Shown: in pieces, positions 26,358-49,207 of the stretch
Numbering within the stretch: the stretch's first letter is position 1
How the letters are laid out: every line of letters starts with the position of its first letter
Source: Henriciella sp.
GTDB lineage: Bacteria; Pseudomonadota; Alphaproteobacteria; Caulobacterales; Hyphomonadaceae
Assembly: GCA_017642885.1 (NCBI GenBank)
Contig: JAEPOM010000017.1
Span: forward strand, 1 to 57,093
DNA length: 57,093 nucleotides
Reading direction: 5' to 3'
Notes under the pieces: model-generated
The model's input: only the letters and a program-made list of their open reading frames with translations
Databases searched by the model: none
What the model was told of the DNA's origin: nothing
Position numbers and translations under genes: made by a program

Positions 26358-28262
26358 TTAATCCGCTATTCCAATCCCGCGCCCCAGCGCCCACGAAATC
26401 CGTCCCCCGCGCACGACACCCGACACGGCCATCCCGCGCCGCTGCTCCAGCACCTGCCGCCAAGGTACAATCGTAAAATCCCTCTGCCGCTCAATCACCG
26501 CGAACTTCCCACTCACCCGAGACACATGCTCGCGATACGTACCATCGACATGTCCTCGTTCCGGCGCTGGCGAATATGGCTTACCGATCTCTACGCTCAG
26601 CGTCCGGGCAGCTCGCGCGAAATCTCGCTTCATCAACTCCGTCTTCTGTGCCGCAGACAAGCCAGTGCCAGCCGCTACCTTCATTCCAATCCCCGTCAGA
26701 AACGCCCGTCGCTTCACCTGCGCCTCAGCCACCTCTTTTCCGAATCCGAGCGGCACGCCAGACGGGGCAGGGACGTCATCCAGCCAGGTCACACCAAGGG
26801 CCGTTTCCTGATCTGCCAAGCCAAGCTCCGAGCGAACTAACACCTGCGCCGCCCGTAACCGCGCCTGTGCCCGCTCGTACGAACTCGCTCGGTCTAGATA
26901 ATCCGGTGGAACCTTCCACTCCGCATCAGCTGAACGCTCTGCATGACCAGCCCGCCGCAAAGCCTCCAGCCGTCGCACATGAGCCGCGACAAATTCCGGG
27001 CTGTATCGGGGATCGTCCGCCTGGTGCAGACCTGCCGAATAGCTCCCACCATTCGCGCGTGCGATCCGATCAATCGTGATGTCTGACGGCTTCGGTTCAA
27101 TGTTCGGCGGAGACACCGTCACAATCGCCCCGCGCTTTACTTCCTCGACCTCGCCGGCGACACCCAGCTCCACAAACACGGCGCGCCCATCCAGACCGTC
27201 GATGATGACATAGGTCCGGTCATGCGCTTCACCCGTAAGACCCGTCTGAAGAACCACGCCCGTCACGCTCCGCCCGCCGGGATCGGACTTGTCGAAGATA
27301 GCGTCCGTATCGAGCCGCCGGTCACCGCGTCCGGCAAGAGCACGGTTCATCGTCTTGATGATGTCGTGCCTTTCCGACAAGCCCCGCAAAACCTCGCGGA
27401 AATTCTCCTTCATCTGCCAGCGTCCAGCTCCGAGTTTCTCTGCAAGCCCAAGCCGTTCCAGAGTCCGCAGCCGCGCGGCATGCAAAGTACGATACTGTGA
27501 AGGACTATCCTTCAACCGAAATTCCTGTTCGGGACCTACCTGACGCGCGATAAAATGATCGATCCGTGTCACGCGCTCGGCAGCGATATCCGATTGAAGT
27601 TTGCGCTCCTGCTCGAGCCGAGTTTCAGGCCCGAGTTCCAGCGTTACAAGGTCCTCGGCCCGCTCCCGGATCCCATGCGAAATATACGCCCGCGGCATGA
27701 CAAGGTCAGAGCCATCTTCACGCCGCCCCCGGATGACCAAATGCGCATGCGGCCGGCCCGTATCATGGTGGACTGCGCCGACCCATTCGAGCCGCGTCCC
27801 CAGATCGGTTTCCATCTGCGAGACGAGATCACGGACGAAGGGCTTGAGGTCTGCCATTTCGGCGCCGTCTTCGGGCGAAACAATGAACCGGAAATGATGC
27901 CTGTCTTCGGTAATGGATTTGACGAGATCGGACGCGTTGGCATCCTCGCTCATGGCGTCAAACAGTTTCCCGCGATCCTTCTCTTCCAGCGCTGCGTCGC
28001 GCCGGATGTATCCGATGTGGGCTGCCAGTGCCGCCACGCTCGATGCCGACATGCGCACAATGCGTGCCTTGACGATGACGCGCCTCTGCCCACCGCGTGC
28101 ACCGATACGGGGCCGGGCGGGAAGGGTAGTGCGGCGAACGCCGCCGACGGACGACAGCGCCTTCGTCATCCGCGTCAGATAGGTCTTCGCGCGCCCCCCT
28201 GATCCGGCAGACCGAATCCTGCCAGGTCTGGGAGTGAAGGGATTGTCCTGCGGCGTGCTCAT
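26358..28262 (-). CDS. VirD2-like relaxase with DUF3363
   Basis: The relaxase nicks oriT and pilots the transferred strand. The 634-residue product from the ATG at 28262 has an Arg-rich start (TPRPGRIRS), the relaxase domain with HHFRFIVSPEDG and the metal-binding histidine motif RPHAHLVIRG (about 190-200), and a C-terminal DUF3363 region. The start is chosen because its ATG overlaps the stop of a small upstream frame and because relatives begin with this motif. An ATG at 28310 is possible. It is separated from traF by an IS110 insertion. Confidence 0.92.
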   Translation of the reverse strand: MSTPQDNPFTPRPGRIRSAGSGGRAKTYLTRMTKALSSVGGVRRTTLPARPRIGARGGQRRVIVKARIVRMSASSVAALAAHIGYIRRDAALEEKDRGKLFDAMSEDANASDLVKSITEDRHHFRFIVSPEDGAEMADLKPFVRDLVSQMETDLGTRLEWVGAVHHDTGRPHAHLVIRGRREDGSDLVMPRAYISHGIRERAEDLVTLELGPETRLEQERKLQSDIAAERVTRIDHFIARQVGPEQEFRLKDSPSQYRTLHAARLRTLERLGLAEKLGAGRWQMKENFREVLRGLSERHDIIKTMNRALAGRGDRRLDTDAIFDKSDPGGRSVTGVVLQTGLTGEAHDRTYVIIDGLDGRAVFVELGVAGEVEEVKRGAIVTVSPPNIEPKPSDITIDRIARANGGSYSAGLHQADDPRYSPEFVAAHVRRLEALRRAGHAERSADAEWKVPPDYLDRASSYERAQARLRAAQVLVRSELGLADQETALGVTWLDDVPAPSGVPLGFGKEVAEAQVKRRAFLTGIGMKVAAGTGLSAAQKTELMKRDFARAARTLSVEIGKPYSPAPERGHVDGTYREHVSRVSGKFAVIERQRDFTIVPWRQVLEQRRGMAVSGVVRGGRISWALGRGIGIAD

Positions 28263-28585
28263 TTGAACCGATCCAGCGGAAAACAGGCCAGTTTCTGCGA
28301 ATGGAACCATGCCAATCTGTAGTCCTTGCTGAGGATTCCATCAAACCACAGAGCTACACACTGAGGCATGGAACCATAAAAATCGATGTGCAGACAAGGT
28401 GATAGACCCTCATTGGCTCCATGAGCTTTTATCTTGCACTCACTAACCCCGGCCTTCCTGTCAACCGTGATTTCGCCTGTGAGGGTCGCATTTGATCCTG
28501 TTTCAACATGATATTTCCTTTCGATTGATCGCGGTGCTGACGGCCCATGCACTACTTCGTGCTGAAGCGCTGAGGCCTCGCACAT
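28259..28585 (-). CDS. possible small gene upstream of relaxase, perhaps truncated by IS110
   Basis: An open frame whose stop overlaps the relaxase ATG (ATGA), the usual arrangement for coupled genes in this element. The last 85 residues (from about KYHVETG) look protein-like; the first part runs into the presumed insertion-sequence end, so the original start may be lost. No family is recognised. It could also be chance. Confidence 0.35.
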   Translation of the reverse strand: MCEASALQHEVVHGPSAPRSIERKYHVETGSNATLTGEITVDRKAGVSECKIKAHGANEGLSPCLHIDFYGSMPQCVALWFDGILSKDYRLAWFHSQKLACFPLDRFK

Positions 28586-28639: not shown

Positions 28640-29880
28640 GAAGCCTGTTTGGTGGACTTCCTGTGCAGGCAAGATAGCGGGATCATCCAACCCGCGGCCC
28701 GTCAGGGTCGCCTCCGCCGAAGCGGATTCGGGTGTCGGTTTAAGAGGTCATGGAAGTTCTCCTGGCGTCATGTTTCAGGTCCGCATCCATCAGATTGCTC
28801 GCGCTTTCAGATCGGCGTTCGAGGGCATGAAGGTGCTGCCTTCGAGCCACATCCGATGCAGGATGACGGACAGTTTTCGTGCGAGGGCGACGGCCGCGCG
28901 CCGGTGGCCAAGCCGCTTCTGCAGACGCATGCCCCAGGCCTTCAGCACTGACCATGTTCGCACATTCGACAGGATCGAGTTGCCGGCCTCGACCAGCAGC
29001 CAGCGCGTCTCCGGATCGCCGCATTTTGATATCCGGCTGTTGTAATCGACAGTTCCTGACTGGAAGCGTTTCGGCGTCAGACCAAGGTGTGCCCCAACTG
29101 TCTTTGATCGCCTGAACCGCCCTGGATCGTCGATGCAGGATTTGAACGACAAGGCGGTGACTGGGCCAACGCCCGGCACCGTCATGAAGCGCAGACAGAC
29201 CTCATCTTCGCGGGCAATCTGCATCACCAGCCGGTGGCATTTCTGGAACTCTTCATACAATGTGCGCCGCGCATGGAGCATGCATTCCGTCATGTCCTGC
29301 AGGACCGGATCTTCCTCGCGCAGGCGTTCGCGCAGATCCTCCTCGAACCGTCCGCGCGTCGTCCGCGTCATCTTCACGCCGAAGACTTTTAGCGTGCCCC
29401 TGATTGCGTTCTCGATGTCGAGAAACTTGCGCTTCAGCATGCGGCGGTTGGCGAGCAGAACCCGGATGCGATGGCTGTCATCGCTCTTCACATGGACCTG
29501 CCGGAACCAGCCGGTCCGCATCATCTGGGCGAGGCCTCGCGCGTCATTCCGGTCGGTTTTGTTGCGCATCGCACTGAGCGCGCCTGCCATGTGCCTGGCT
29601 TCGACAATGATCGCTGGAAGTCCATGCTTTGTCAGCTCATTGCTCAGCCAGGGCGACAGCGAACTGGCTTCAAATCCGATCCGTTTCAGGCTTTCGCCGA
29701 ACCGCTGAAGCACCGGCACAATGGCGTCCGGTTCTGTCGGAACACGCGCTTCCTTGAGTGTCTTTCCATTGCTGTCAACGACGCAGACATGCGTCTCCTC
29801 CAGCGAAATATCCAAACCTGCAAATACAATCATGGCTGTCTCCCTTCGTGAAAACCGCCATCATACCTGAAGCCTTCGAG
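28640..29880 (-). mobile_element. IS110-family insertion sequence (approximate ends)
   Basis: A transposase gene of the IS110 family lies between traF and the relaxase gene, two genes that are normally adjacent or nearly so. The outer limits are estimates: IS110 elements make no simple terminal repeats, and no duplicated target is visible. Non-coding DNA lies on both sides of the transposase (28586-28789 and the short stretch after 29833). Either could hold the guide (bridge) RNA that IS110 elements use for target choice. Confidence 0.6.
28790..29833 (-). CDS. IS110-family transposase (DEDD recombinase)
   Basis: A 347-residue transposase with the N-terminal RuvC-like DEDD domain, residues Asp8, Glu55, Asp94 and Asp97 (in NKTDRNDA), and the C-terminal transposase_20 domain with FMTVPGVGPVTALSF, which contains the candidate catalytic serine. 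Length and domain order are complete, so it should be active. A ribosome binding site GAAGGGAG precedes the ATG. Confidence 0.95.
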   Translation of the reverse strand: MIVFAGLDISLEETHVCVVDSNGKTLKEARVPTEPDAIVPVLQRFGESLKRIGFEASSLSPWLSNELTKHGLPAIIVEARHMAGALSAMRNKTDRNDARGLAQMMRTGWFRQVHVKSDDSHRIRVLLANRRMLKRKFLDIENAIRGTLKVFGVKMTRTTRGRFEEDLRERLREEDPVLQDMTECMLHARRTLYEEFQKCHRLVMQIAREDEVCLRFMTVPGVGPVTALSFKSCIDDPGRFRRSKTVGAHLGLTPKRFQSGTVDYNSRISKCGDPETRWLLVEAGNSILSNVRTWSVLKAWGMRLQKRLGHRRAAVALARKLSVILHRMWLEGSTFMPSNADLKARAI

Positions 29881-30481
29881 ACCGGACTCTCGGCAGGGGG
29901 CGGGCGGGGTTACGACAGCATTCCGATCTGTCCCCATTTTTCCCAATCAACCCTTCTGCATGCTCCTTCCGATCACCGCCTATCCACACCGCACGACCAA
30001 TGATGTCGCCCTCCCTGACCGCTCCAAAATACCGTCCATCAAAGGAATCCGGTGTGCGATCAGAAAGGAGCAGAACCTCTTCTGCCTGAAGCTGCCTGCA
30101 GCCCGTCCAGGGAGACGGCAGGGCGCGTCCCATACTATCTGTTGATAGCAGGCGGACAGTCGAAGTCCCGTTGATCTGTAACACACCCTTGATCTCACAA
30201 ACCGTGTCGCCTTCGAGCGCCCGGACGTTCTTGATGACGGGGATGCCTGGCGCAAGATAGCGCCTCTGGATCGCGAGTCTCGAAGCGGCCTCTGGCAGGT
30301 TCGAGACAACCAGATCACCCCGCGAAATCACCTCCAAAGGTTCGACGCGATACCACCCAAGCGGAGCACTTTCGCTCGGATTGTAGAGTAATATGGGCGG
30401 TAAAACACCAGTCGCCGGAAGGCCTGTCAATGCCACTCCGAGCACAGAAATACCGCTCCAAAATACTGCGCGGAGGCTCAT
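29861..30481 (-). CDS. traF: conjugal S26 signal peptidase-like TraF
   Basis: TraF is an S26-family serine peptidase that matures the conjugal pilin, here the trbC product. The 206-residue product has a membrane-spanning N-terminus, the Ser/Lys dyad (Ser38 in SAPLGWY and Lys84 in VIKNVRA) and the FDGRYFG box near 150-160. The last 40 or so residues are longer and more basic than usual, and probably come from the insertion-sequence junction. The start at 30481 fits a normal signal-anchor. Confidence 0.88.
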   Translation of the reverse strand: MSLRAVFWSGISVLGVALTGLPATGVLPPILLYNPSESAPLGWYRVEPLEVISRGDLVVSNLPEAASRLAIQRRYLAPGIPVIKNVRALEGDTVCEIKGVLQINGTSTVRLLSTDSMGRALPSPWTGCRQLQAEEVLLLSDRTPDSFDGRYFGAVREGDIIGRAVWIGGDRKEHAEGLIGKNGDRSECCRNPARPLPRVRSRRLQV

Positions 30482-30562
30482 GAAAAGCCCCTCCAGTTGC
30501 TCGAAAGAAGTCTCCAATTGGCCATCGACAATGTGATTGAATCTGTTCTCAATGCCCTGATT

Positions 30563-30778
30563 TCAAGCGCCATGACCGCCTCCCCGGGACCTATTCCAGA
30601 CGGTCGAATAATCATTCAAATCATCGACATGATAGACGACGGTGCCGCCATGTTTTCTGTATTGCGGTCCATTGTTCGACCAGCGCCAGTTCTCCATCGT
30701 GCGAACCGTGATACGCAGATAAGCCGCCGCCTCTTTCGTCGTCAGGAAAGGACTTGGACGTCCTTTTGCCTCGTTCAT
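30563..30778 (-). CDS. small helix-turn-helix protein (excisionase/AlpA-like)
   Basis: A 71-residue protein with a MerR-like helix-turn-helix (LTTKEAAAYLRITVRTMENW) and a short wing (YRKHGGTVVYHVDDL). Proteins like this regulate transfer or act as excisionases in integrative elements. It sits 81 bases upstream of traF on the same strand. The ATG at 30778 was chosen over an upstream in-frame ATG at 30811 because the domain starts there. Confidence 0.8.
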   Translation of the reverse strand: MNEAKGRPSPFLTTKEAAAYLRITVRTMENWRWSNNGPQYRKHGGTVVYHVDDLNDYSTVWNRSRGGGHGA

Positions 30779-30971
30779 TCCCCGTACCCCGTCTTGCCGG
30801 GCACAGATCAACGTGGCGGCTTCAACACGTCCCAGAAAACAAAAGAAAATTCTAATTGGGAGTCACGAAGATATGCGGCTCCGCGGCGATACCCTGTTTA
30901 ACCATGCGCAGCGCGCATGACTTCGTAAGCATACAGATGCCCCTCTATCGAGCGAATTAAACATGCCAGAA

Positions 30972-31021: not shown

Positions 31022-31345
31022 CTAGTCCTTGGGGTTCCAGAGGATCACGTGGCGGCCTTTCTTGCCTTTGACCGGTGCGAGGTTCGCGTAGATGCGGCGC
31101 GGGCCAATCTGCGGATCTGCGAGGGTCAGGGAGACGTATTCGCGGCCGGAAGACTTTGCCTTGCGCATCCAGCCGCCGCCGATTTCGGTCGCGGTCTCAC
31201 CGGCGAAGATGCGGTAGTCCGGCTGGGCCTCTTCAGCTTTGTCCGCGTTCTTTTCGATGCGGATGGCGGCTGAGAGGTTCATCATTGCGAGGGCGCCTTC
31301 GAAGCCGGTTTTGGTTTCGCTGACATATCCGAGTGCGTTTGCCAT
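31022..31345 (-). CDS. DUF736 protein
   Basis: A 107-residue DUF736 protein: MANALGYVSETKTGFEGAL at the start, then IRIEKNADKAEEAQPDYRI and a C-terminal IWNP-like end (VILWNPKD). DUF736 is a small conserved protein of conjugative elements in alphaproteobacteria, with unknown function. The ATG at 31345 has a perfect AAGGAG ribosome binding site; a longer upstream open frame is not coding. It follows a 450-base leader that contains a nested hairpin. Confidence 0.9.
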   Translation of the reverse strand: MANALGYVSETKTGFEGALAMMNLSAAIRIEKNADKAEEAQPDYRIFAGETATEIGGGWMRKAKSSGREYVSLTLADPQIGPRRIYANLAPVKGKKGRHVILWNPKD

Positions 31346-31798
31346 GGGGGTCTCCTTTTCGTTTCCGTGGCTGTCTTCGAGGGACACCTTGTCCCCGTCG
31401 ACGCCGGACCGCCCGGACGGCGCGGGGCGGGCCTGAACCTGCAAGGGCGCAGCAAAGCGGAGCACCGGACAGGCGCATGAATTTGTCTCGCGAGGAGCCG
31501 CAAAGCGGCGGGGAAATTCGTGGGACTGTCCGGTTTCAGGGCCGTTTCGTGTCGTCCAGGTCACACGGCAATAGACGGGAACAAGGGGTCTTTCGGGGCA
31601 AGCGGAGAGCGGAACAGACCGCTTTGGCAATCGCACTCGGAGGCAAAAAGAAACCCACAGACGGGCGATTTTTCGGAGGCGCATCTGTCTTGATCTGAAC
31701 CGCAGGAGTACACACTCATCCGGTAGAAGCATGTGGAAATGCCGCCCGGCATGCTGCCGAACGGCTTTCGCTTCCACGGACAAGGAGACTGCAACATG
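31346..31798. other. geneless leader between ParB-like gene and DUF736
   Basis: No gene is supported here. The main structure is a nested inverted repeat at 31464-31534 (listed separately). The remainder is purine-rich toward DUF736 and must carry its promoter, transcribed leftwards, although no clear consensus is seen. Confidence 0.5.
31464..31534. promoter_or_regulatory. nested inverted repeat upstream of DUF736
   Basis: Three collinear stems: ACCGGACAG (31464-31472) with CTGTCCGGT (31526-31534); GAATTT (31479-31484) with AAATTC (31514-31519); GCCGC (31497-31501) with GCGGC (31505-31509), closing a three-base loop. The whole 71-base block can fold as one hairpin in RNA or in single-stranded DNA. 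It lies 118 bases upstream of the DUF736 start. Role unknown. Confidence 0.6.
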
Positions 31799-33817
31799 TC
31801 AGGCGGCGTCCTGCTCTGCGACAGACTGGTCTTCGGGAGAAGCTTCGTCCTCGCCAGAGGTAAACAGGCTGGCGATCCGGACCCATGCATCTGCTGGCGG
31901 CGACCCTGCGTTTGTAACAAGGCGCGTAGGCGGCACCTGCATCCATCCCGGACGCCAGCCCGGATTGGCCTCACACTCTTCGCCAGTGATCCGGTTCCAG
32001 ACCAGTTCCTTCTGGGCTTTGCCCGTGTCTGTGAGCGCTGCTTTCGCCGTCGATGGAGACGCAATGTCTGCCACCATGGCGTTAATGGCGCGCTTGTCCC
32101 GAACGAGATCAAGGAAGACACGCTCCGGCTTCCAGTAAGCGGCCATGTCGGTTTCGGTGGCGACAGCGACGGCTTCCACAACCGGGCCGCCCGCTTCCAG
32201 CGTATCCGCCATCACAAAAGCCAGCACGGTCAGGGTTTCCGCATCGTTCATTTCGAGCAGCGCCGCAAAGACCTCGCTGAGGTGATAGGCGTCCCCGTTT
32301 GCGCGCAGGGATGCGACCCCATGGGCGTCAAACAGGCTGCGGACATGGTCCCCGGCGGCCCGCATTTCTGCGGCGGCGCGTGATGCCTCCACGCTGGCCT
32401 GTATGTCCTCCTTCCGGGCGAGGAAGTCGTGCCGCCTGACAGTCCAAAGAGCGGACCCGACCATGGCATGCGCCACCATCAGCCGGAGGGCGATTCCAGG
32501 GTGTCCAAGCAAGGTTGTACGCGCTGCGCCATGGCGGTGGAGGGCAATGTATTGTGCGAGCGGCCCGGACATTTCGGGCTTGGTGTCGGCTGCTTCCGCA
32601 TCACCGTCCGGCCTTGCGCGCTTCTCCAGTTTCCGGGCTTCGGCCTGCGTAATGTAGCCCTCATGGAAGGTCACAGTGCCATCATCGCGGACTTCGACAA
32701 TCACGCTGCCGCCCTTCGTCCGGGGGCGCTTCAAATACTCCCAACTGGCAAAATATTTCCCGCGTTCGAGAACCTCTACATTGCGCCACCCGGCGTCAAT
32801 GTAGGTCTCGACCTTGGCCGCAAGCGCTGCCGATTGGGCTTTCCAAAACGTGTCGGCCTCTGCGAAGACACCTGTCTCACCGAAGAGGTCAGCTGCCACT
32901 TTGCCTTCATAGATCGCCAGATCAAACAGCGCCTTGTCGGTCGTGATGGTGGCCCCGCCCGTGATCCATGCCTTGCAGGCGCGGCCCATGGGCGCGCGCT
33001 CTGTTTCACTTCGAAACAGGGCCAGCCAGTCTGCCTGCTGGTCCTTCGTAGCAAGTGTGAGCGCGCGGATTGTCTCCGGGTCGATTTCGTCTTTGGCGTA
33101 AAGCGCACGGATCGGGCTGGAGAGATTGGCGAGGGCGAGGATACGCCGGACTTTCAGGTCCGTGACCCCGAAATGTCCGGCAATCTCTTCCACCGTCCGG
33201 CCTGCATGCGCCAGCTTTCCGAACGCATTGTATTGCTCCATTTCCGTGGCGGGCAGGCGGGCGACATTTTCGATGAGCGAGGCCTCCACCGCTGCGGCGT
33301 CGTCATCCGCTTCCATGATTGCGCACGGGACGGCGATTGACTTGCCGGTCTCAGCGGCAATGACCTGCAAGGCATGGAAGCGCCGCCGTCCCGCGACGAC
33401 GCCATAGCCATCACCTTCGGGGCGCACCAGAAGTGTCTGGCGGATTCCTTTCTCCCGGATGGAGGGCAAGATGTCGGAGACATCAGGCGCCTTGCGGTTG
33501 TGCCGCATGTTGAGCTTGCTGATATGGAGTTGCTCAAGGGGAAGTGTTTTCAGTGCGGGTTGTGCCATGGGATTGTCCTCCTGTTCTGGCGGGTAAAGTG
33601 AAAGGCCAAGCGCCCATGCCGGGCCTTTCCAGTTGATCGGGCTGAAGGGGAGGCCTTCCGCGTCGCGGTTTGCGTCCGGATCGGTCTCGCCCCAGTCATA
33701 GTCATGCAGGCCAATCAGCGGCGCGCGGCCATCGACCCAGATTTCGACGACGCGGGACTCCTCTATGACGAGGGTCATGTGCGGACGTGGCCCTAATAGG
33801 TCATCCAGCGCGCTCAT
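31799..33817 (-). CDS. ParB-like partition/regulatory protein with N-terminal extension
   Basis: A 672-residue product. Residues 1-83 resemble a small stand-alone protein (GPRPHMTLVIEESRVVEIWV). From residue 84 comes a ParB nuclease domain (QLHISKLNMRHNRK, then VVAGRRRFHAL), a KorB/ParB helix-turn-helix region and a long C-terminal domain. The outer ATG at 33817 overlaps the previous gene (ATGA). A second ATG at 33568 has a much stronger AGGAGGA ribosome binding site and gives a 589-residue ParB-like protein of usual form. Both products may be made. Similar large ParB-like proteins occur in leading regions of conjugative elements. Confidence 0.85.
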   Translation of the reverse strand: MSALDDLLGPRPHMTLVIEESRVVEIWVDGRAPLIGLHDYDWGETDPDANRDAEGLPFSPINWKGPAWALGLSLYPPEQEDNPMAQPALKTLPLEQLHISKLNMRHNRKAPDVSDILPSIREKGIRQTLLVRPEGDGYGVVAGRRRFHALQVIAAETGKSIAVPCAIMEADDDAAAVEASLIENVARLPATEMEQYNAFGKLAHAGRTVEEIAGHFGVTDLKVRRILALANLSSPIRALYAKDEIDPETIRALTLATKDQQADWLALFRSETERAPMGRACKAWITGGATITTDKALFDLAIYEGKVAADLFGETGVFAEADTFWKAQSAALAAKVETYIDAGWRNVEVLERGKYFASWEYLKRPRTKGGSVIVEVRDDGTVTFHEGYITQAEARKLEKRARPDGDAEAADTKPEMSGPLAQYIALHRHGAARTTLLGHPGIALRLMVAHAMVGSALWTVRRHDFLARKEDIQASVEASRAAAEMRAAGDHVRSLFDAHGVASLRANGDAYHLSEVFAALLEMNDAETLTVLAFVMADTLEAGGPVVEAVAVATETDMAAYWKPERVFLDLVRDKRAINAMVADIASPSTAKAALTDTGKAQKELVWNRITGEECEANPGWRPGWMQVPPTRLVTNAGSPPADAWVRIASLFTSGEDEASPEDQSVAEQDAA

Positions 33818-34290
33818 GCCTGCGCGACCCGTGCAGGTGCGGACGCCATCAAACGCGCTAAGGCTCTGTGCCCGGCTTGCAAGGCTTCGGGGAGCAGTTC
33901 GCATGCGACTTCAGTCAGGTAGGCGTTCTCCGACCTCGGATCGTTGGCCTCTATACCCCAGATGCTGGCGGCATGAGATTCCAGTTCCACGCTTTCGCGT
34001 TCAATGGCGAGCACGATTCCGCAATAGAACCACTCATCCTTGCGCCACGCGTCCATGACGGCTTCGGCGTCTGCTTGCGCCTTCGTCAGCCGCTCGCGGA
34101 AATTGTTTCCGGGTCCGATAAATCCCGGGTCGCCAATATTGAGCGATGGCCAGAATCCGTCCTGGCGCTCGTCTGGACTATCCGGACAGTCGTCGCGGAC
34201 GATCCGCGCGGTGACGCGAAAGCCGTCAATCTCGACGGCAATGCTGTCGCCCTCGCACACATAGCGGTCAAATCTCTCCCGGAACGCCAT
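33814..34290 (-). CDS. hypothetical protein of the ardA-parB operon
   Basis: A 158-residue, acidic protein without a recognised family. It has an N-terminal beta-rich part (IAVEIDGFRVTARIVRDD), a conserved-looking FWPSLNIGDPGFIGPG and helices rich in Ala and Glu. It lies 3 bases after ardA and overlaps the ParB-like gene by ATGA, so it is certainly expressed with them. Function unknown. Confidence 0.75.
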   Translation of the reverse strand: MAFRERFDRYVCEGDSIAVEIDGFRVTARIVRDDCPDSPDERQDGFWPSLNIGDPGFIGPGNNFRERLTKAQADAEAVMDAWRKDEWFYCGIVLAIERESVELESHAASIWGIEANDPRSENAYLTEVACELLPEALQAGHRALARLMASAPARVAQA

Positions 34291-34293
34291 GAC

Positions 34294-34860
34294 TCAGCGG
34301 CTCCAGAAAATGTGGACTTCATCAAAGCCCGTCTGGAACACCATGATCTCGCCATTCATCGCCATGTCGCGGGCAAGCGCGGTCCAGTCGATATAGTAAT
34401 CGAGCGAGGCCGGAATCTCTGTCCCGCTGTCGCGCGTCACTTCCTCGGCAAAGTCTGCGGCGCTGCGATATTCGCCTGCATAGTCTTCAAACGCGGCGTG
34501 AGCCTGTTCAAGGTCATCGCCGAATTCGCGGTAGAGTTTCGCTCCAAGGCTCCCGTGTTCGGTGATGAAGTCCGCAAGGGCGCAAACTGTCTCGAAGGAG
34601 GCATATTCGGAAATGCGCGCGCCTTCGAACCCCTCATAGTCATGAATTGACCATTCCTCCGCACCCGGTTCAGGCGACGCCGCCAGCATGGCGCGGACGC
34701 CCTGCATCATCTCGTCCGGTTCTGTCGCGTCGATCCACGCCCCGTGGAGCCGTCCATTATTATACGCGGCAAGACAGGCGACATAGATGCGGGGCGTGTC
34801 CCGCAAATCTGGTCCGGTCGCTGTTCCAAGGGGAGCGGGAGTCTCGTGTGAAGGGGTCAT
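34294..34860 (-). CDS. ardA: antirestriction protein ArdA
   Basis: ArdA mimics the bent B-form DNA target of type I restriction enzymes and protects incoming DNA. The 188-residue product is strongly acidic and has the expected order: RIYVACLAAYNNGRLHG, a WSIHDYEGF block, the DDLEQAHAAFEDYAGEY block and the C-terminal FDEVHIFW. The ATG at 34860 has a GAGG ribosome binding site. Directly upstream lies a very large nested inverted repeat. The gene heads the ardA-hypothetical-parB operon. Confidence 0.93.
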   Translation of the reverse strand: MTPSHETPAPLGTATGPDLRDTPRIYVACLAAYNNGRLHGAWIDATEPDEMMQGVRAMLAASPEPGAEEWSIHDYEGFEGARISEYASFETVCALADFITEHGSLGAKLYREFGDDLEQAHAAFEDYAGEYRSAADFAEEVTRDSGTEIPASLDYYIDWTALARDMAMNGEIMVFQTGFDEVHIFWSR

Positions 34861-34902
34861 GTCAGCCTCGCAAAATTGAACCTCGCCCGCGTGCCTTTCC
34901 CG

Positions 34903-35067
34903 GCAGGCGGGAGGGGGCGGACGAAAGGTGCGGGCGCCCGGGCGTATGAGGGCCGGGGGCAAGGCGGAAAGGTAGGAGGCACGGAAAGAACCGGCGGACC
35001 CAGGTCACCGGCGCCTTGCGCGCGGGCCGCGCCCGGGCAGACGCGCCGTCCGCCCCCTCCCGGCTGC
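34903..35067. promoter_or_regulatory. 165-base nested inverted repeat between ardA and ypeA
   Basis: Outer arms 34903-34923 and 35047-35067 pair over 21 bases with one mismatch (core GGGAGGGGGCGGACG). Middle arms 34936-34944 and 35030-35038 pair over 9 bases (GCCCGGGCG / CGCCCGGGC). Inner arms 34959-34966 and 35012-35019 pair over 8 bases (GCAAGGCG / CGCCTTGC). The stems are collinear with short, nearly even internal loops. The block ends 43 bases before the ardA start. Its place in front of an antirestriction gene suggests a single-stranded-DNA promoter (Frpo/ssi type); inference. Confidence 0.65.
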
Positions 35068-35147
35068 TGGGAAAGCTTGTCCACGCTTTCAAACACCAAA
35101 CAGGCAGGCTGGTGCCGTGGATACGAATCCTTCCAGACCCGACAGCC

Positions 35148-35582
35148 ATGGCCTTGGATATACGAGACTTCCGGGAAGCTGACCGCGCAGCGCTGATTGC
35201 GCTTTGGGAGGCGTGTGCGCTGACCCGGCCATGGGACGACCCGAATGCAGACATGGACCGGTCGATCGCATCCCGCGATGCCACGATCCTCGTCGGTACA
35301 TTAGATAACGATGTCATTGCCAGCGCCGTGGTCGGCCATGACGACCATCGCGGCTGGATCTACTATCTGGCTGTCAGCCCAGACCGTAAAGCCTGCGGCC
35401 ATGGGCGCGAAATGATGGCCGAAGCCGAGCTTTGGCTGACGGCGCGGGGGACGCCGAAGGTGCAGCTCATGGTGCGCGGGGAGAACGAGACCGCGACTGC
35501 CTTCTACAATGCCCTCGGCTACGAGCGCCAGGATGTGACCGTTCTCGGCAAATGGCTCATGCCCTCGCCCGAGGCAGATTGA
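35148..35582 (+). CDS. ypeA: GNAT acetyltransferase (YpeA-like)
   Basis: A 144-residue GNAT-fold N-acetyltransferase closely resembling YpeA: DIRDFREADRAALIALWEAC at the start, RPWDDPNADM, the GHDDHRGWIYYLAVSP core and the acetyl-CoA loop around KACGHGREM. The substrate is unknown. The ATG at 35148 was chosen because the domain starts there; an upstream ATG would place about 40 residues inside the GC-rich inverted repeat. It reads opposite to its neighbours, so it is probably cargo of the element. Confidence 0.88.
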   Translation: MALDIRDFREADRAALIALWEACALTRPWDDPNADMDRSIASRDATILVGTLDNDVIASAVVGHDDHRGWIYYLAVSPDRKACGHGREMMAEAELWLTARGTPKVQLMVRGENETATAFYNALGYERQDVTVLGKWLMPSPEAD

Positions 35583-37027: not shown

Positions 37028-38077
37028 TCACGTCGCAAGTTTTTGAGTGGATTGTTGTTCTTTCAATATATCCAGGGCTACGTCGACGATCATATCTTCC
37101 TGGCCACCAACCATACGCCTACGTCCTAGTTCAACCAGGATTTCACGTGTATCGATCCCATAATCTTTCGCTGCCTTCTCTGAATGCCGGAGGAAGGACG
37201 AGTACACCCCGGCATAGCCCAGCGAGAGCGTTTCGCGATCAACGCGGACGGGGCGGTCCTGGAGTGGGCGGACAAGTTCCTCAGCGGCATCCATGAGCGC
37301 GAAAAGATCGCATCCATGCTTCCACCCCTTTCGCTCGGCGGCTGCGATGAACACCTCAAGCGGTGCGTTTCCGGCCCCGGCACCCATGCCGGCCAGCGAA
37401 GCATCCACGCGTCTTGCGCCATGTTGAACGCCGACAATGGAATTGGCGACGCCAAGCGACAGATTGTGGTGGGCGTGGATACCCCGTTCAGTTTCCGGCT
37501 TCAGGACTTTTTCGTAGGCTTGAAGCCGTGCGATGTATCCATCCATGTCGAGCGCGCCGCCACTATCGGTGACATAGATACATTCGGCACCATAGCTTTC
37601 CATCATGGCGGCTTGTTCAGCCAATTTCTCAGGCTCAACCATGTGGGACATCATAAGAAAGCCAACCGTGTCCATACCCAGATCTCTGGCAACACCGATA
37701 TGCTGTTTCGATACGTCGGCTTCCGTGCAGTGTGTGGCGATCCTGACAGACCTGACGCCAAGCTTGTAGGCATGCTTCAGCTCCTCGATCGTTCCGATCC
37801 CGGGAAGGAGGAGCGTGGTCAGTTTCGCCGTTTTCACTGAATCTGCGACGGCTTCAATCCACTCCCAGTCTGTGTGGGCACCAAAACCATAATTGAAGCT
37901 TGAGCCATTCAGGCCGTCTCCATGTGCAATCTCGATTGCGTCGACCCCGGCCTGGTCAAGGGCGGCGGCAATCTTGCTGACGTGCTCGATACCGTATTGG
38001 TGTCGGATCGCATGCATCCCGTCGCGCAGAGTGACGTCCTGAATGTAAAGATTGTCGGATTTTGGATCGAACGCCAT
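37028..38077 (-). CDS. bphI: 4-hydroxy-2-oxovalerate aldolase
   Basis: Cleaves 4-hydroxy-2-oxopentanoate to pyruvate and acetaldehyde, with Mn2+, in a channelling complex with the acylating aldehyde dehydrogenase. The 349-residue product has [10 protein letters not shown] with Arg18, Asp19 and His22, the metal-binding [11 protein letters not shown] and the C-terminal communication domain. The start overlaps the dehydrogenase stop by one base (TGATG). It is the last gene of the hydratase-dehydrogenase-aldolase unit. Orthologues are also called dmpG, mhpE or todH. Confidence 0.96.
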
Positions 38078-39024
38078 CAGGCAGTCTCCTTGGCTAGCCG
38101 CTGCGCGGCGATCTTCTCAGCGGTCGCAATGCCAGCTGACGTCATTATGTCGAGATTTCCCGCGTATGCAGGCAAGTAGTGGGCCGCACCCTCGACTTCC
38201 AGGAAGACGCTGGTCTTGATGCCTTCAAACGTGCCCAGGCCCGGAATCTTGACCGGGTTGTTCGAGCCGAACCGTTCGAACTGAACCTTTTGCTTCATCC
38301 GATAGCCGGGCACATAGGCATTGACCTTTGCAACCATTGCTTCGATTGAGGCCTCAATTGTCGGCTCATCTGCGCCACTAGAGAGGGTGAATACCGTATC
38401 GCGCATGATCATCGGAGGCTCCGCCGGGTTCAGGACGATTATGGCTTTGCCTTTCCGGGCTCCTCCAACCTCTTCTATACCCTTTGAGGTGGTCTCGGTG
38501 AATTCATCAATGTTGGCCCGCGTTCCCGGCCCGGCTGACTTGGAGGCGATGGAAGCGACGATCTCCGCATAGTGGACTGTCGCGACGGATGCTACTGCTG
38601 CCACGATTGGGATCGTCGCCTGCCCGCCGCAAGTGACCATGTTGACATTTGACGCATCCAGATGCGCGTCACCATTGACGACGGGTATGACATACGGCCC
38701 GATCGCCGCAGGCGTGAGGTCGATCATCACCTTTCCGGCGGACGTGACGACTTCATTGTGCCGCTTGTGTGCGCCAGCAGATGTCGCATCAAAGACAATT
38801 CCGATTTCGGGCCACACGTCGAGCTTAACGAGACCCTCAATTCCTTCATGCGTGGTCGCGATACCCATGCGCTTTGCCCGGGCAAGGCCGTCCGAGTCGG
38901 GATCGATCCCGACCATCGCGCCCATTTCGAGACCCTTTGACTTGCGTATGACCTTGATCATGAGGTCAGTTCCGATATTTCCGGATCCGATGATCGCAAC
39001 CTTGGTCTTCTTGAGAGTTGTCAT
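38077..39024 (-). CDS. bphJ: acetaldehyde dehydrogenase (acylating)
   Basis: Oxidises acetaldehyde to acetyl-CoA with NAD+ and CoA, using aldehyde passed from the aldolase. The 315-residue product has the N-terminal nucleotide-binding loop [10 protein letters not shown], catalytic Cys132 in VTCGGQAT, and [12 protein letters not shown]. The ATG at 39024 has a TAGGAG ribosome binding site; a TTG two codons upstream is less likely. Orthologues are dmpF/mhpF/todI. Confidence 0.96.
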
Positions 39025-39036
39025 TTCCAATGTCTC

Positions 39037-39825
39037 CTATTTCGCCGCAATTGCGAGGCGAACCGACCCAATACCTTCGATATCTGCTTCAAACAGATCA
39101 CCAGGCTCCATTGAGGCCATCGGGCCAAGAGCACCTGTCAGAACGACGTCGCCGGCCTTGAGAGGTGCTCCGAGCTCTGCGCATTTTCGTGCGAGCCAGA
39201 GTGCGGCGTTTAGCGGATTTCCAAGGCACGCGATGCCGGCGCCATATGAAACCGGGCGTCCATTGCATTTCATCACCATGCCAGCATTGACGAGATCAAG
39301 CCCATGCAGTGCACGAACAGGACCGCCCAGGACATATAGGCCTGATGAGGCGTTATCCGCGATCGTATCCGAAATGCGGATATCCCAGTCCTTGATACGA
39401 CTGCCCACAATTTCGATGGCAGGCACGACGTGGTCTATGGCTCGGATCAGTTCGCTTGGCGTTGTATCCTGCGCGTTGATGTCCCTGCCGAGTATAACGG
39501 CTATTTCAGCCTCGGCCTTGGGTTGTTGAGTTGCTGACAACGGAATTTCATCACCGTCGCAATATTCCATATCCGCATAGAGGACGCCAAAATCGGGCTG
39601 GTCTACGCCAAGTTGATTTTGGACTGCCGCTGACGTCAGGCCAATTTTCCGGCCAACAATCCGTCGCCCTGCGGATACCCACCGGGCTGTGTTGATCGCC
39701 TGGACCTCGTATCCGGCTTGCGGATCAAGACCAATGAGATCACGCACTGGCGCGCAGTAGGTTTGTCCAGCGTGTGCGTTGAACAGTGCATCCGCAGCCT
39801 TTTGAATTTCATCTCTGGAGATCAT
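39037..39825 (-). CDS. bphH: 2-hydroxypenta-2,4-dienoate hydratase
   Basis: Adds water to 2-hydroxypenta-2,4-dienoate, the product of meta-cleavage hydrolysis, giving 4-hydroxy-2-oxopentanoate. The 262-residue product matches the fumarylacetoacetase-like hydratase family: GRKIGLTSAAVQNQLGVDQP, the metal-site segment AEAEIAVILG, and VLTGALGPM near the end. The frame is open to 39909, but the ATG at 39825 gives the normal length. It is the first gene of the lower-pathway operon and diverges from an IclR gene. Confidence 0.94.
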   Translation of the reverse strand: MISRDEIQKAADALFNAHAGQTYCAPVRDLIGLDPQAGYEVQAINTARWVSAGRRIVGRKIGLTSAAVQNQLGVDQPDFGVLYADMEYCDGDEIPLSATQQPKAEAEIAVILGRDINAQDTTPSELIRAIDHVVPAIEIVGSRIKDWDIRISDTIADNASSGLYVLGGPVRALHGLDLVNAGMVMKCNGRPVSYGAGIACLGNPLNAALWLARKCAELGAPLKAGDVVLTGALGPMASMEPGDLFEADIEGIGSVRLAIAAK

Positions 39826-39861
39826 GGTCTGGTTCGCGTCCGTAAGTAACTTGGAATGTAG

Positions 39862-39928
39862 ATCGCTAACTACGCGATATACTTGACACTGCAATCCGAG
39901 GCAGGCCAATTGCTATCACAATGTGATA
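39862..39928. promoter_or_regulatory. divergent promoter/operator region, hydratase and iclR
   Basis: Two palindromes lie in the short gap: ATCGC (39862-39866) / GCGAT (39874-39878), and TATCAC (39914-39919) / GTGATA (39923-39928) with a three-base centre. A TTGACA box (39883-39888) between them could be the -35 of iclR. IclR-type regulators commonly bind such palindromes in divergent gaps, so these are likely operators. Confidence 0.55.
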
Positions 39929-39941
39929 AATGGAGATCCGT

Positions 39942-40697
39942 GTGACACGATCCATGTCTTCCTTCGACAAGGCGATGGCCTTGTTCGGAGCACTTGTTGC
40001 GCAGGACGGTGTATTCGAATCAGACGCAATGAGTGTCCAGCTCGGAGTGCCGGAATCGACTCTGTACAGGCATCTGAATGCCCTCCATTCGGCCGGGCTC
40101 ATCTGCCGATCCAAACGTGGACGATATTTGCCAAACCCTGTTTTTTTGAAGAAGCTGGAGGGGTTCACACCACATGCTGTGCTGTCGGAAATAGTACGAC
40201 CCATTTTGGAACAACTAAGTGTCGCGTTGGAAACCACGACCCACTTTGGCATTCTGGAGAACGACATGGTTACCTACCTCGCGAAGGCGGTATTTGAAGG
40301 AGAGGAGGTGTTCACGCGCGAGAAAGGGCAGCTGGAGGCGTACTGTTCTGCTATCGGCAAGGTGTTGCTCTCGCACATGACGGTCGACGAGCGACAGGCG
40401 TATATAACCAGCGGGCCCTTTCCAAAGCTCACGGATAAAACGATCACGGACCCAGCCGAAATCGAACGAGAACTACATCGCACGCGCATTAGGGGATTCG
40501 GCGTTGACGATGGCGAGGTTCATAACGCACTTTATTGCATCGCTGTGCCAGTCTTCACTTCGCGGGGAATGGTCGTGGGCGCAATTTCTAGTTCATCTAG
40601 CCAGAGGTGGGCGAGTCCTAAAGAACAGCGTGATCGCCTGATTCAGCTCAACGGGGTAGCTCAGTCAATCTCTTCCACTTTAGGGGCCGGCGCCTGA
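39942..40697 (+). CDS. IclR-family transcriptional regulator
   Basis: A 251-residue regulator with an N-terminal winged helix (GVPESTLYRHLNALHSAGLI) and a C-terminal IclR effector domain (AIGKVLLSHM, then GVDDGEVHNALYCIAVPVF). It is divergent from the hydratase operon, and probably controls it in response to an aromatic or dienoate effector. The GTG at 39942 has a GGAG ribosome binding site at good spacing; ATGs at 39930 and 39954 are alternatives. Confidence 0.9.
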   Translation: MTRSMSSFDKAMALFGALVAQDGVFESDAMSVQLGVPESTLYRHLNALHSAGLICRSKRGRYLPNPVFLKKLEGFTPHAVLSEIVRPILEQLSVALETTTHFGILENDMVTYLAKAVFEGEEVFTREKGQLEAYCSAIGKVLLSHMTVDERQAYITSGPFPKLTDKTITDPAEIERELHRTRIRGFGVDDGEVHNALYCIAVPVFTSRGMVVGAISSSSSQRWASPKEQRDRLIQLNGVAQSISSTLGAGA

Positions 40698-40717
40698 TCA
40701 TGTGGAGATGAGAGGTC

Positions 40718-40744
40718 AAAAAAATGGGAGCCGCTTAGGCTCCC
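40718..40744 (-). terminator. intrinsic terminator reading leftwards, downstream of iclR
   Basis: On the minus strand GGGAGCC-TAAGC-GGCTCCC is followed by a seven-T run (the A run at 40718-40724 on the plus strand). It is a textbook terminator for leftward transcription, but no leftward gene precedes it. For iclR, reading rightwards, the stem is also usable but lacks the U-run. Confidence 0.7.
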
Positions 40745-41313
40745 AGAGTTTGGCGGAGACCTAGCTCCGCCGGAGGAAACAGACTGGTTGTCGTATCTCT
40801 TGAGCGTTCCCTGACCTTGAATGGCAGTGAAGTTCAACCTGACACGACACATTTGAGTTGTGCCGCGATCCGGTTGCGCGTCAACCTGGCCGGATACGAA
40901 TGGGTGGCATCGCTCCCACATTGTGAAACTTTATGAAATCTACGCGCTCGGGTGAACAGGATTGGAATTCTGTAGGCCTACCCATGATATTTGTGCGTCG
41001 AGAATATTCCCGAAAGCGGCCAATGCGCGAATAATCGGACATGTGGGAACATGGACTGCGTTCTGAGCGTTCCCGAACAACCGATAGAAATAAGCGAGTA
41101 TACGGAACAAAAATCTCGGAGTCGGGAAATGGCTTTTCGACATCCGGGGCGGCGAGCACTGCTCCAATCCGGGAGTCAGGTGCACTAAGTTGCGCTGGCG
41201 TCTGTTCCGTATGGCGAAATTAACAGCGGCATCGATAGCACAGTTGCCTTTGGCCACATGCAGATTTCGATCCTTGCTACGGAATTTGAGCTCGCGCTGT
41301 TCGTAAATAAATA
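40745..41313. other. 570-base region without a recognised gene
   Basis: It starts with a hairpin GGCGGAG (40752-40758) / CTCCGCC (40765-40771). Beyond that only overlapping short open frames on the minus strand are seen, none with a recognised domain or good start signal. It may hold a small RNA (given the leftward terminator at its left edge), or be decayed sequence. Confidence 0.45.
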
Positions 41314-41360
41314 TTGACACAATCAAAAAAATCATTTTTTCTCAAAAAAAGAACAAAATC
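41314..41360 (+). promoter_or_regulatory. AT-rich promoter-like block before the SDR operon
   Basis: TTGACA (41314-41319), then A- and T-tracts up to GAACAAAATC. The same block, nearly base for base, occurs at 53652-53696 before the gntR gene. It lies 40 bases before the SDR ribosome binding site. A promoter with a shared regulator site is the simplest reading. Confidence 0.6.
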
Positions 41361-41398
41361 TTGCACCTCAAGCAAGGTTGTTAGGGAGGTACTTAAAT

Positions 41399-42181
41399 AT
41401 GCCAAAACTAAGCGGCAGTTCCGTTTTGATTACGGGCGGAGCCACGGGAATTGGTCGGGCGGTGGTCCATCATTTTGTCGAGGAAGGTGCCAGACTGTGT
41501 GTTCTGTGCGTCAATGACGAACAGGCGAGTTCGTTGCGGGGTGAGTTCGGGGCTGAGGTTGAAACAGTAATTGGGGATGTGCGCAGTCTGGCAGACAATC
41601 AGCGCGCTGCGGCCCTTGCCGTGGAGAGATTCGGTGGACTGAACACCTTTATCGGCAATGCAGGGATATGGGATTTTATAACGCCTCTGGAAGCGCAGGA
41701 TGAAGAAAAGCTCGAAAGAGTCTGCGATGATATTTTTGGTGTGAATGTAAAGGGGTACGCGCTCGGAGCGTACGCGTGTCTTCCTGCGCTTCGCCAGTCT
41801 AAAGGGTCCATAATTTTCACGGCCTCTAGCTCAAGCTTTTTTACGGGCGGAGGTGGTCCGCTATATGTGGCATCGAAACACGCTGTGATTGGACTCATCA
41901 AGCAGCTTGCGAAGGAAGTCGCGCCAGACGTTAGGGTTAATGGCGTAGCTCCAGGAGGTACGATTACCAATCTTTCCGGGTCGCCCTCATCCGAGCACGC
42001 AAAGTCCCAGATGGCTGAGATTCCAGAGATCGACAAACTTCTCGAGGGCATGACACCGCTCGGATTTGCCGCAAAGCCTGAAGACCATGTAGCGCTATAT
42101 GCGTTGCTTGCCTGTCCGGTGTCGGCTCGATACGTCACAGGCACAACCATCTTGTCCGATGGCGGTATTGGCGTGGGCTGA
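41399..42181 (+). CDS. short-chain dehydrogenase, cis-dihydrodiol dehydrogenase-like
   Basis: A 260-residue SDR resembling BphB/TodD, which oxidise the cis-dihydrodiol made by the ring dioxygenase to a catechol, using NAD+. The nucleotide loop TGGATGIG (12-19), NAG (87-89), catalytic Ser around 143, Tyr156 and Lys160 (YVASK) are at positions very close to BphB. The ATG at 41399 has a GGGAGGT ribosome binding site. It is the first gene of the rightward operon. Confidence 0.88.
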   Translation: MPKLSGSSVLITGGATGIGRAVVHHFVEEGARLCVLCVNDEQASSLRGEFGAEVETVIGDVRSLADNQRAAALAVERFGGLNTFIGNAGIWDFITPLEAQDEEKLERVCDDIFGVNVKGYALGAYACLPALRQSKGSIIFTASSSSFFTGGGGPLYVASKHAVIGLIKQLAKEVAPDVRVNGVAPGGTITNLSGSPSSEHAKSQMAEIPEIDKLLEGMTPLGFAAKPEDHVALYALLACPVSARYVTGTTILSDGGIGVG

Positions 42182-42253
42182 CCCAGCCTGAACGCGTTCA
42201 CCAACTAAGTTGAAATTGTGCCAGCAGTGCTGGCGGTCTTTTGGATCAAATCT

Positions 42254-43345
42254 ATGAACCTGCCGGTCTTCAAATTCGCTCATGCTACCGTTGCTGCTGG
42301 GGTACTTTACTTCTCCCAACCTGGGGCGCTGGCTGAGCAGGCCGTTTTACCGGCCCCCGACATAAGCCCTCGGTCAAATATAGAGCTACCAACTGACGGA
42401 CGTGTACGGTTTGTTCCTGATAATTTATTTGCCGTCGATTTTGTCTCTGATTCTGTGGGCTGGGCGGGTGGATACTACGGGACGCTACTGAAGACCGAGG
42501 ATGGAGGAGGGCACTGGAAGCGCGAGCCCTTACCGTTTACGGACTTAATTAGGCGGATCGACTTTGTGGACGAGTCCGTCGGCATTGCTGTCACGAGTAG
42601 AGGAAAGATCCTGAGGTCTGAAGACGGGGGCGCACATTGGGAAGTTGTGCATATTGAGTCGGGCATTAACTTGCGAGATGTCTACTGTCTCGACGCCCAG
42701 ACAGCTTGGGTCGTCGGACATGAGGCTACAGTGCTTCACACGTCCGATGGCGGTAAAACGTGGCAAACTCAGGCGTTATCCGGATATCAGGGACGTGATC
42801 TACCGAGATTGAATGGCATTACACGTCTCGAGGACGGGCGGTTGGTTTTGGTTGGGGAGTTCGGCCTGATAGCGTCGTCAATCGATGATGGATTGAGCTG
42901 GGAGGTGCTGGACGCGCCCGATGCCTCGGTCACATTCACAGCGGTAGATGCATGGCGTTCGGAGGCGCTAATATCTGGGCTTGGCGGCAAGCTTACAATG
43001 GTTCGATTTGGTTCGGACAGTGACGTTGAAGAGGGCTCGGGACGCTTAATGGACCGTGTCCCGACGATCACAGCTTTGTCCTCGGGGACAGATGCGCATT
43101 TGTTCGATCTAACATTAGACCAAGATGGTGACGGAGTGATCGTAGGCCAGGGCGGTGTGGTCCGTGTAAAAGCTGGATTGCCTGTATCGGATTTGTTGCC
43201 CTTGGAGAGTAAGCCAGGATTCCTTTGGTACGGAGGAGTCTCTAAAACATCAGAACACGGAGGGTATGTTGTCGTTGGGGCGAACGGTGCCGTACTAAAA
43301 ACCGAATTCGATGTCTCAGATCCGGAGCCGTTAGTGCGGTGGTAA
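42254..43345 (+). CDS. YCF48/BNR-like beta-propeller protein, secreted
   Basis: A 363-residue protein with an N-terminal signal peptide (ending ALA, near residue 27) and repeated blades of the type SVGWAGGYYGTLLKTEDGG, as in YCF48/HCF136-like proteins. No photosynthesis function is meant. In non-phototrophs such proteins are found with MMPL/RND permeases and the DUF1302 and DUF1329 proteins, as here. It probably acts in the periplasm. An upstream GTG at 42218 would add 12 residues before the signal peptide. Confidence 0.85.
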   Translation: MNLPVFKFAHATVAAGVLYFSQPGALAEQAVLPAPDISPRSNIELPTDGRVRFVPDNLFAVDFVSDSVGWAGGYYGTLLKTEDGGGHWKREPLPFTDLIRRIDFVDESVGIAVTSRGKILRSEDGGAHWEVVHIESGINLRDVYCLDAQTAWVVGHEATVLHTSDGGKTWQTQALSGYQGRDLPRLNGITRLEDGRLVLVGEFGLIASSIDDGLSWEVLDAPDASVTFTAVDAWRSEALISGLGGKLTMVRFGSDSDVEEGSGRLMDRVPTITALSSGTDAHLFDLTLDQDGDGVIVGQGGVVRVKAGLPVSDLLPLESKPGFLWYGGVSKTSEHGGYVVVGANGAVLKTEFDVSDPEPLVRW

Positions 43346-43391
43346 CAGGAGTAGTTCGCTTGTTGCAAATTCAATCAAAGGCTCAAATTCA

Positions 43392-45719: not shown

Positions 45720-45778
45720 ATTGAGGGCGATAGAGCCTGGCTGCGCATCGGGAAAAATAGAAAGTGAGGGAGAGAAAG

Positions 45779-47701: not shown

Positions 47702-47753
47702 AGAAACATAACGATAACGCAAAGATGTCTGGTTCTTGATGATGGAGAAGAAA

Positions 47754-49169: not shown

Positions 49170-49176
49170 TCACTCT

Positions 49177-49207
49177 CGGGTTGGCATTCATCAAGATTGC
49201 CAACCCG
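49177..49207 (+). terminator. strong hairpin between DUF1329 and the acyl-CoA synthetase
   Basis: CGGGTTGGCA (49177-49186) and TGCCAACCCG (49198-49207) form a perfect 10-bp stem with an 11-base loop, 7 bases after the DUF1329 stop. No U-run follows, so it may protect or process the mRNA, or slow transcription, rather than end it. Confidence 0.5.

Follow-up and report, generated by a model that had tools for sequence, protein, structure and literature searches.

Introduction

The closest known counterparts of the structure reported here, as described in excerpts of PMC7690428, PMC9849209 and PMC11541004, are Frpo of the F plasmid and ssi of ColIb-P9 and related enterobacterial plasmids, in which, as in our family, a long hairpin formed by one strand precedes leading-region genes that include ardA. 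Passages of PMC7690428 propose promoter and initiation roles alike for Frpo in F. Within the sampled open-licence literature, single-strand promoters have been demonstrated by experiment only for F and ColIb-P9. The survey of PMC11541004, as excerpted, finds Frpo/ssi elements by BLAST and by the E. coli -35/-10 consensus together with structure, its main text does not contain the word Alphaproteobacteria, and the available part of PMC12826799 describes detection by BLAST. For RP4, the model of the Trb-type systems, the authors of a transcriptome study state in the part available that no single-strand promoter was identified (PMC7314908), and the open-licence literature sampled describes none for alphaproteobacterial or RlxS elements.

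Two other systems bear comparison. EGeRS1 of pLS20-type Bacillus plasmids is likewise a conserved, structured DNA; it lies just ahead of the ribosome-binding sites of establishment genes, ardC among them, but it is much longer. Excerpts of PMC8708921 report that EGeRS1 before pLS20 ardC was without a constitutive promoter and stopped upstream transcripts, and that its authors hold a single-stranded-DNA promoter to be highly unlikely, the transferred strand being the non-template strand; in the family described here, by contrast, the selected structure belongs to the strand complementary to the gene. The sso of ICEBs1 resembles our family in that it, too, acts when a conjugative element is single-stranded, but differs in that it primes complementary-strand synthesis and has no tie to a gene start (PMC4595007). 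The hairpins treated below have a core of about 150 nt and reach about 180 nt with their arms, against 227 nt for the ColIb hairpin as cut here, and, unlike Frpo and ssi, they belong to alphaproteobacterial RlxS elements and carry a GC-rich -10-like box.

A hairpin upstream of ardA in a Henriciella element

The window analyzed, a stretch of 57,093 nt from Henriciella sp. (contig JAEPOM010000017.1), looks like an integrated conjugative element from its gene content. Open reading frames read by eye only suggest trb-type and traG-like genes at about 9.9-21.5 kb. A minus-strand gene row follows, identified by Pfam except for one small ORF. In order of position it comprises an RlxS-type relaxase (26358-28310; DUF3363, E 2.2e-112, and Relaxase), an IS110-family transposase, a TraF-type S26 peptidase (29861-30517; Peptidase_S26), a small HTH protein that stands in the place of RdfS and is likened to it by position only (30563-30811; HTH_17), an ORF with a DUF736 protein (31022-31783), a ParB-like protein whose true start is probably further in (31799-33904; ParB_N), the small ORF without a Pfam match (33814-34290), and ardA (34294-34860; ArdA, E 7.5e-44). 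The hairpin sits between ardA, whose ATG begins at 34860, and a divergent acetyltransferase gene on the plus strand (35148-35582).

Inverted repeats, DNA folds and family alignments place the entire hairpin at 34895-35075 of the plus strand, opposite to the coding strand of ardA. A reading of the sequence alone had described three nested stem pairs of 21, 9 and 8 bp before ardA, and all three are present. With a single mismatch, the 21-nt stem pairs 34903-34923 with 35047-35067; in an inverted-repeat search it grows outward to 29-nt arms, 93% complementary, with the 5' half at 34895-34923 and the 3' half at 35047-35075. Inside it, the 9-bp stem pairs 34936-34944 with 35030-35038 and the 8-bp stem pairs 34959-34966 with 35012-35019. 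The conserved core, as matched by the covariance model R1 described below, spans 34911-35059 of the plus strand, the window being among the sequences from which R1 was built. A gap of 42 bases separates position 34903 from the ardA start codon (34858-34860). Folded as DNA, the plus strand of 34880-35110 reaches -84.4 kcal/mol (z -6.65), a value equaled by none of 200 shuffles, while the ardA coding strand of the same segment reaches -65.3 kcal/mol (z -2.32), equaled by 4 of 200. The hairpin exceeds chance, and its plus strand is stronger than its coding strand.

The position between two divergent genes could suggest a terminator separating ardA from the acetyltransferase gene (called ypeA in the sequence-only reading, which had allowed for this role), or a site at which a protein binds the double-stranded DNA. 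A terminator is not required where two genes start back to back, no T-run follows the stem, and a search of 34700-35300 returned 0 terminator-like sites; nor does a terminator or a protein site predict the strand bias reported below. The terminator proposal is dropped on this evidence, and the pair of explanations is extremely improbable.

The loop sequence GGTAGGA (34971-34977 in the window) is unpaired in the consensus structure, and most of its bases are nearly invariant in the 48 representatives introduced below; it may be a protein-binding site or fold into a small hairpin of its own.

A family of hairpins preceding ardA and ardC

A second copy of the hairpin (71%) was found in the same genome before ardC, as identified by Pfam, with an RlxS gene further on and ORFs that read as DUF736 and TraF in between. 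A search with ArdA relatives led to 37 loci, and the hairpin aligns before 25 of these as well as before the ardC copy. The first alignment used the 25 loci in which a hairpin was visible and the upstream DNA reached 260 nt or more, with the ardC copy (L042) as the 26th sequence; removal of L019, L023 and L030 and substitution of the window for L005 gave a set of 23. Among the other ArdA loci, L006 and L007 duplicate the window, and L012, L013, L020, L037, L039 and L040 end at contig edges. At four loci (L034, L035, L038 and L041) the upstream DNA is present but contains no such hairpin; for L034 and L035 the match begins only at residue 75.

The covariance model R1 represents the strand that corresponds to the plus strand of the window (the plus-type strand). 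Within Caulobacterales, the order to which Hyphomonas belongs, it matches in at least 70 of 299 genomes, the source genome included; in at least 2 of 385 genomes of the class (the source genome and one other); and in at least 1 of 299 genomes of the phylum (the source genome). All three counts are lower bounds, with 8-10 candidates scored per genome. A further copy, in a genome from another family of the class, was apparently missed by the fast class-wide scan and was found directly; it precedes ardC and has an oriT-like motif and RlxS behind it (G435, R1 match in L216). We fetched 100 stretches among the matches listed. The 114 copies assembled contain some genomes twice under two names, and grouping them into 48 clusters at 85% identity removes the duplicates; one representative of each is used below.

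Rfam gave for the window one chance match far below threshold, and for nine relatives tRNAs only. The hairpin belongs to a large family without an Rfam match, present in about 100 mobile elements, nearly all from one bacterial order. BLAST of one member against collections of sequenced plasmids and phages found it in neither. Nor was it found in 15 stretches chosen for other RlxS elements, of which 3 belong to the source genome and 12 to other members of the class; 14 of the 15 do carry RlxS and one, L235 from the source genome, carries a TrwC relaxase. Only L235 showed, with the seeds used, a relative of ardA or ardC, namely an ardC without this hairpin.

The gene next to the hairpin is ardA in 81 of the 100 fetched copies and ardC in 16; the other three (L117, L143 and L149) have a different neighbor. 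ArdA and ArdC are both antirestriction proteins, and they belong to different Pfam families. By a simple ATG rule, the start codon lies at a median of 45 nt from the hairpin in 99 copies (10-90% range, 38-56 nt). RlxS was seen in 61 stretches and is without exception encoded downstream of the hairpin, beyond TraF and on the same strand, at a median distance of 5.3 kb from the hairpin (2.2-11.2 kb). For the 39 copies in which no RlxS was reached, the stretch stops within 10 kb in 26 and runs on further in 13. Five of these 13 have a TrwC relaxase, on the same strand in two and on the opposite strand in three, with Pfam applied to two of them; in the other eight none was found with the seeds used. 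The stretches in which the hairpin-ard module occurs with a TrwC (MOBF) relaxase are L097, L155, L106, L126 and L131.

As with Frpo and ssi, the hairpin stands before anti-defense genes oriented towards oriT, to judge from ardA or ardC in 97 of 100 copies, from RlxS in 61 of 61 and from the oriT-like motif described below in 58 of 61. ColIb-P9 shares with this family an arrangement in which antirestriction genes read towards the relaxase genes: its ardA (34105-34605) reads on the same strand towards nikA-nikB (39728-42770), and its oriT adjoins nikA.

Such regularity bears on the possibility that the hairpin is a single-strand initiation site of the ssi/sso type, at which synthesis of the complementary strand begins in the recipient, with no role in gene expression. 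An initiation site would be structured in the predicted entering strand, as this hairpin is, and Frpo in F has been proposed to serve in both capacities (PMC7690428, in excerpt). Pure priming needs neither the narrow spacing to a start codon, nor one orientation, nor a place before two unrelated anti-restriction genes, and we consider it unlikely as the whole explanation.

Covariation and the choice of strand

In the set of 23 sequences, 18 of 38 pairs had changed on both sides, compared with 8.6 in shuffles, and none of 500 shuffles gave as high a number; when the partners were slid by 1-3 columns as a control, at most 7 pairs were doubly changed. The sequence-only reading had named a lack of stem conservation in related elements as evidence against a single-strand promoter; the stems proved to be both conserved and covarying.

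Non-Watson-Crick pairs discriminate between the strands. The core-stem cells of the 23-sequence set, read on the coding strand, comprise 784 Watson-Crick pairs, 21 A.C and 1 G.T. For the 48 representatives, with 45 shared pairs, the corresponding numbers are 1814, 116 and 19, against 1422, 138.6 and 75.6 in column shuffles. Compared with 1000 such shuffles, the A.C count falls just below all of them (lowest 121) and the G.T count far below (lowest 61). Coding-strand A.C exceeds G.T in 37 of the 48 representatives, ties with it in 9 and is fewer in 2. Because an A.C on the coding strand is a G.T on the other strand, wobble is tolerated only on that other strand; the rarity of G.T on the coding strand, where A.C stays near chance, indicates that the selected structure is in the strand opposite to the ardA mRNA sequence. 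An excess of pyrimidine-pyrimidine pairs is partly due to composition, and weight was therefore placed on A.C versus G.T. Composition as the cause of the bias was rejected, since column shuffling leaves composition unchanged and yet gives an expectation of 76 G.T cells against the 19 seen.

Folding energies agree in direction. Of the 114 copies, 111 have the plus-type strand as the more stable one, as do 45 of the 48 representatives (the exceptions being L076, L079 and L106), and the advantage of that strand exceeds that of its own shuffles in 43 of the 48. The bias is as expected for a single-strand promoter, since the would-be template strand of ardA is the one that folds.

These results weigh directly on the explanation that the hairpin acts as an mRNA leader of ardA or ardC, blocking read-through or controlling translation in the manner of pLS20 EGeRS1. 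It lies just before the ribosome-binding site, it is GC-rich and structured, the gene behind it is ardC in 16 of 100 copies, and the coding strand too folds better than shuffles (median z -4.44). An RNA of the coding strand should, however, tolerate G.U and reject A.C, and the opposite is seen: G.T on that strand is depleted four-fold relative to shuffles and A.C only slightly, and the coding strand folds worse than its complement in those same 45 representatives. A leader is quite improbable in our estimate. Strand bias and covariation together argue against it, and leave single-stranded DNA of the plus-type strand or an RNA copied in that sense.

The bias fits a non-coding RNA of the plus strand, read away from ardA, as well as it fits single-stranded DNA. 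Rfam gave no match at threshold, and the promoter of such an RNA would need to lie on the ard side, where little is conserved but the ribosome-binding site and where the gene itself varies between ardA and ardC; we regard this RNA as very improbable. The preferred reading is that the hairpin works as single-stranded DNA.

The same tests were applied to eight ColIb/NR1-type hairpins before antirestriction genes, which we take from their place to be ssi/Frpo. All eight fold better in the corresponding strand, but they fall into two groups of close relatives, and their wobble counts track whichever strand supplied the structure and so decide nothing. For the stretch before ColIb ssb, the corresponding strand is again the more stable (-216.6 versus -194.5), and for the stretch between ssb and parB, which covers DUF905, it is the coding strand (-62.4 versus -58.8).

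Promoter-like boxes in the folded strand

The sequence-only reading had called for a fold of the single strand and a search of it for -35/-10-like elements. The search brought out two motifs, TTGC, which is paired, and ANA, which is partly unpaired, with a spacing of 16 nt in most of the family. In the window, the putative -35-like box is TTGCGC (35016-35021, plus strand, in the 3' half of the folded strand), and the putative -10-like box is CAGACG (35038-35043, plus strand), which follows after a 16-nt spacer and has three of its six bases unpaired in the window fold. Searched for as such, TTG occurs on the 3' half of the plus-type strand in 45 of 48 representatives and is absent there from 3. 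It is followed by C in 42 of the 45 and then by G in 39. The best-scoring spacer to a -10 is 16 nt in 39 and 17-18 nt in 6. At the -10-like place, the first position is a pyrimidine (Y) in 40 of 45, the second A in 41 and the fourth A in 32. The mean unpaired probability of TTG is near 0, which is to say that it is nearly always paired, and the four bases after Y have values of 0.80, 0.47, 0.54 and 0.43, the highest below mid-stem; one position in the spacer also reaches 0.75.

CAGACG scores poorly against an E. coli matrix. The housekeeping -10 of Caulobacter is GCTANAWC, and the GC-rich -10-like box fits this consensus better than the E. coli one. An ordinary sigma-70 promoter was considered and rejected after a promoter scan gave no match at the hairpin; the same scan finds none in the ColIb region either.

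In ColIb, NR1 and the like, an alignment by eye shows a paired TTGCAT and, after 15 nt, a TAAGAT, part of which falls in an internal loop; in L179-L181, three of the eight controls, the gap between the boxes is instead 20 nt, also by eye. No homology with Frpo/ssi was detected by sequence or by model: R1 finds nothing up to E 10 in positions 10000-43000 of ColIb-P9, and the best nhmmer hit has E 14.

Origin of transfer and the strand that enters

An oriT-like motif, TTGTCTGCACATC, stands at 28385-28397 on the minus strand, about 75 nt before the relaxase ORF. Excerpts of PMC11963761 describe for ICEMlSymR7A an operon rdfS-traF-msi107 upstream of oriT and rlxS, and it is by analogy of position that motifs of the TTGTCTGCACATC type are called oriT-like here. 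In 58 of 61 loci a relaxed form of the motif is found no more than 260 nt from where the RlxS ORF starts. It also occurs, with up to 2 mismatches, by RlxS in 7 of the 14 hairpin-less RlxS stretches, and its presence there even without a hairpin fits an oriT.

On the plus strand, at 28431-28436, is ATCTTG, which agrees with the MOBP nick core ATCCTG at 5 of 6 bases; several relatives have ATCTCG. A short inverted repeat (28409-28413/28421-28425) stands 5' of it. Excerpts of PMC3772185 give for MOBP the core ATCCTG with an inverted repeat 5' of the nick. A predicted nick after 28436, between ATCTTG and the following C (28431-28437), would open the plus strand towards traF, ardA and the hairpin. 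That the plus strand is the one transferred is suggested by this nick-core match and by the layout of the genes. The most conserved block of the oriT region, TTGTCTGCACATC, is on the strand opposite to ATCTTG; this and the ATCTCG of several relatives count against the predicted plus-strand nick.

The IS110-family transposase gene of the window (28790-29833, by Pfam) separates traF from the oriT-like motif. Relatives are more compact here, 60 of 61 having no more than 250 nt between the end of TraF and the RlxS ORF; the IS110 insertion of the window lengthens the path from oriT to the hairpin.

Proposed function

The best reading of these data, drawn from sequence comparison, is a new family that would work like Frpo/ssi without detectable homology to them. 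The hairpin is probably a promoter that works in single-stranded DNA and serves the anti-restriction gene next to it. This was the proposal of the sequence-only reading, and as a candidate it has gained support from the covariation, the occurrence before both ardA and ardC, the narrow distance to the start codon, the strand bias and the TTGC/ANA pattern.

In the mechanism we envisage, the element would enter the recipient as one strand, predicted to be the plus strand of the window, nicked in an oriT that lies between traF and rlxS. Following the nick at a distance of about 6.5 kb, the hairpin would fold at once. Its 3' half would serve as the non-template strand, presenting a paired TTGCGC and, 16 nt on, the half-unpaired CAGACG, and its 5' half would serve as template. 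RNA polymerase would start near the base of the stem and run into ardA, so that ArdA would be made while the DNA is still single-stranded; second-strand synthesis would then abolish the hairpin and turn the promoter off. Nicked strand, polymerase binding, transcription and timing are all inferred. The hairpin is most likely a switch that turns on a defense-evading gene as the element enters a new cell.

More tentatively, and with somewhat less than even confidence, we suggest that the hairpins are an independently evolved class in which direction itself is switched, the same boxes driving ardA or ardC only once the entering strand folds. In double-stranded DNA the TTGC-16-YANA pair faces away from ardA. 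If true, such a switch would extend single-strand promoters from enterobacterial plasmids to RlxS elements of Caulobacterales, where an alphaproteobacterial polymerase would recognize them. Because the family comprises 48 clusters at 85% identity, the anatomy of the promoter becomes readable from evolution and testable at single-base level. Counting A.C against G.T is an inexpensive and general way to learn in which strand a conserved hairpin works, and lets such promoters be found by structure rather than by BLAST.

Related elements and other hairpins

The genome from which the window comes has four RlxS-type relaxase genes, on contigs C8, C11, C19 and C27, and probably carries several related elements. 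The hairpin model matches only the C8 and C27 copies in this genome; the C19 stretch is short upstream. Positions 37028-55909 of the window hold cargo that, from ORFs read by eye only, resembles a pathway for breakdown of aromatic compounds or steroids, with an aldolase, an acetaldehyde dehydrogenase, a hydratase, an IclR-type regulator, a short-chain dehydrogenase and an MMPL-type transporter.

From 30 alphaproteobacterial ardC loci, 24 were folded, and 4 of these plus 4 longer stretches were searched with R1. R1 matches neither L187, L190 nor the longer stretch around L197. Strong hairpins lie upstream of ardC in all three (L187, L190 and L197), and these may be further single-strand promoters or RNA leaders.
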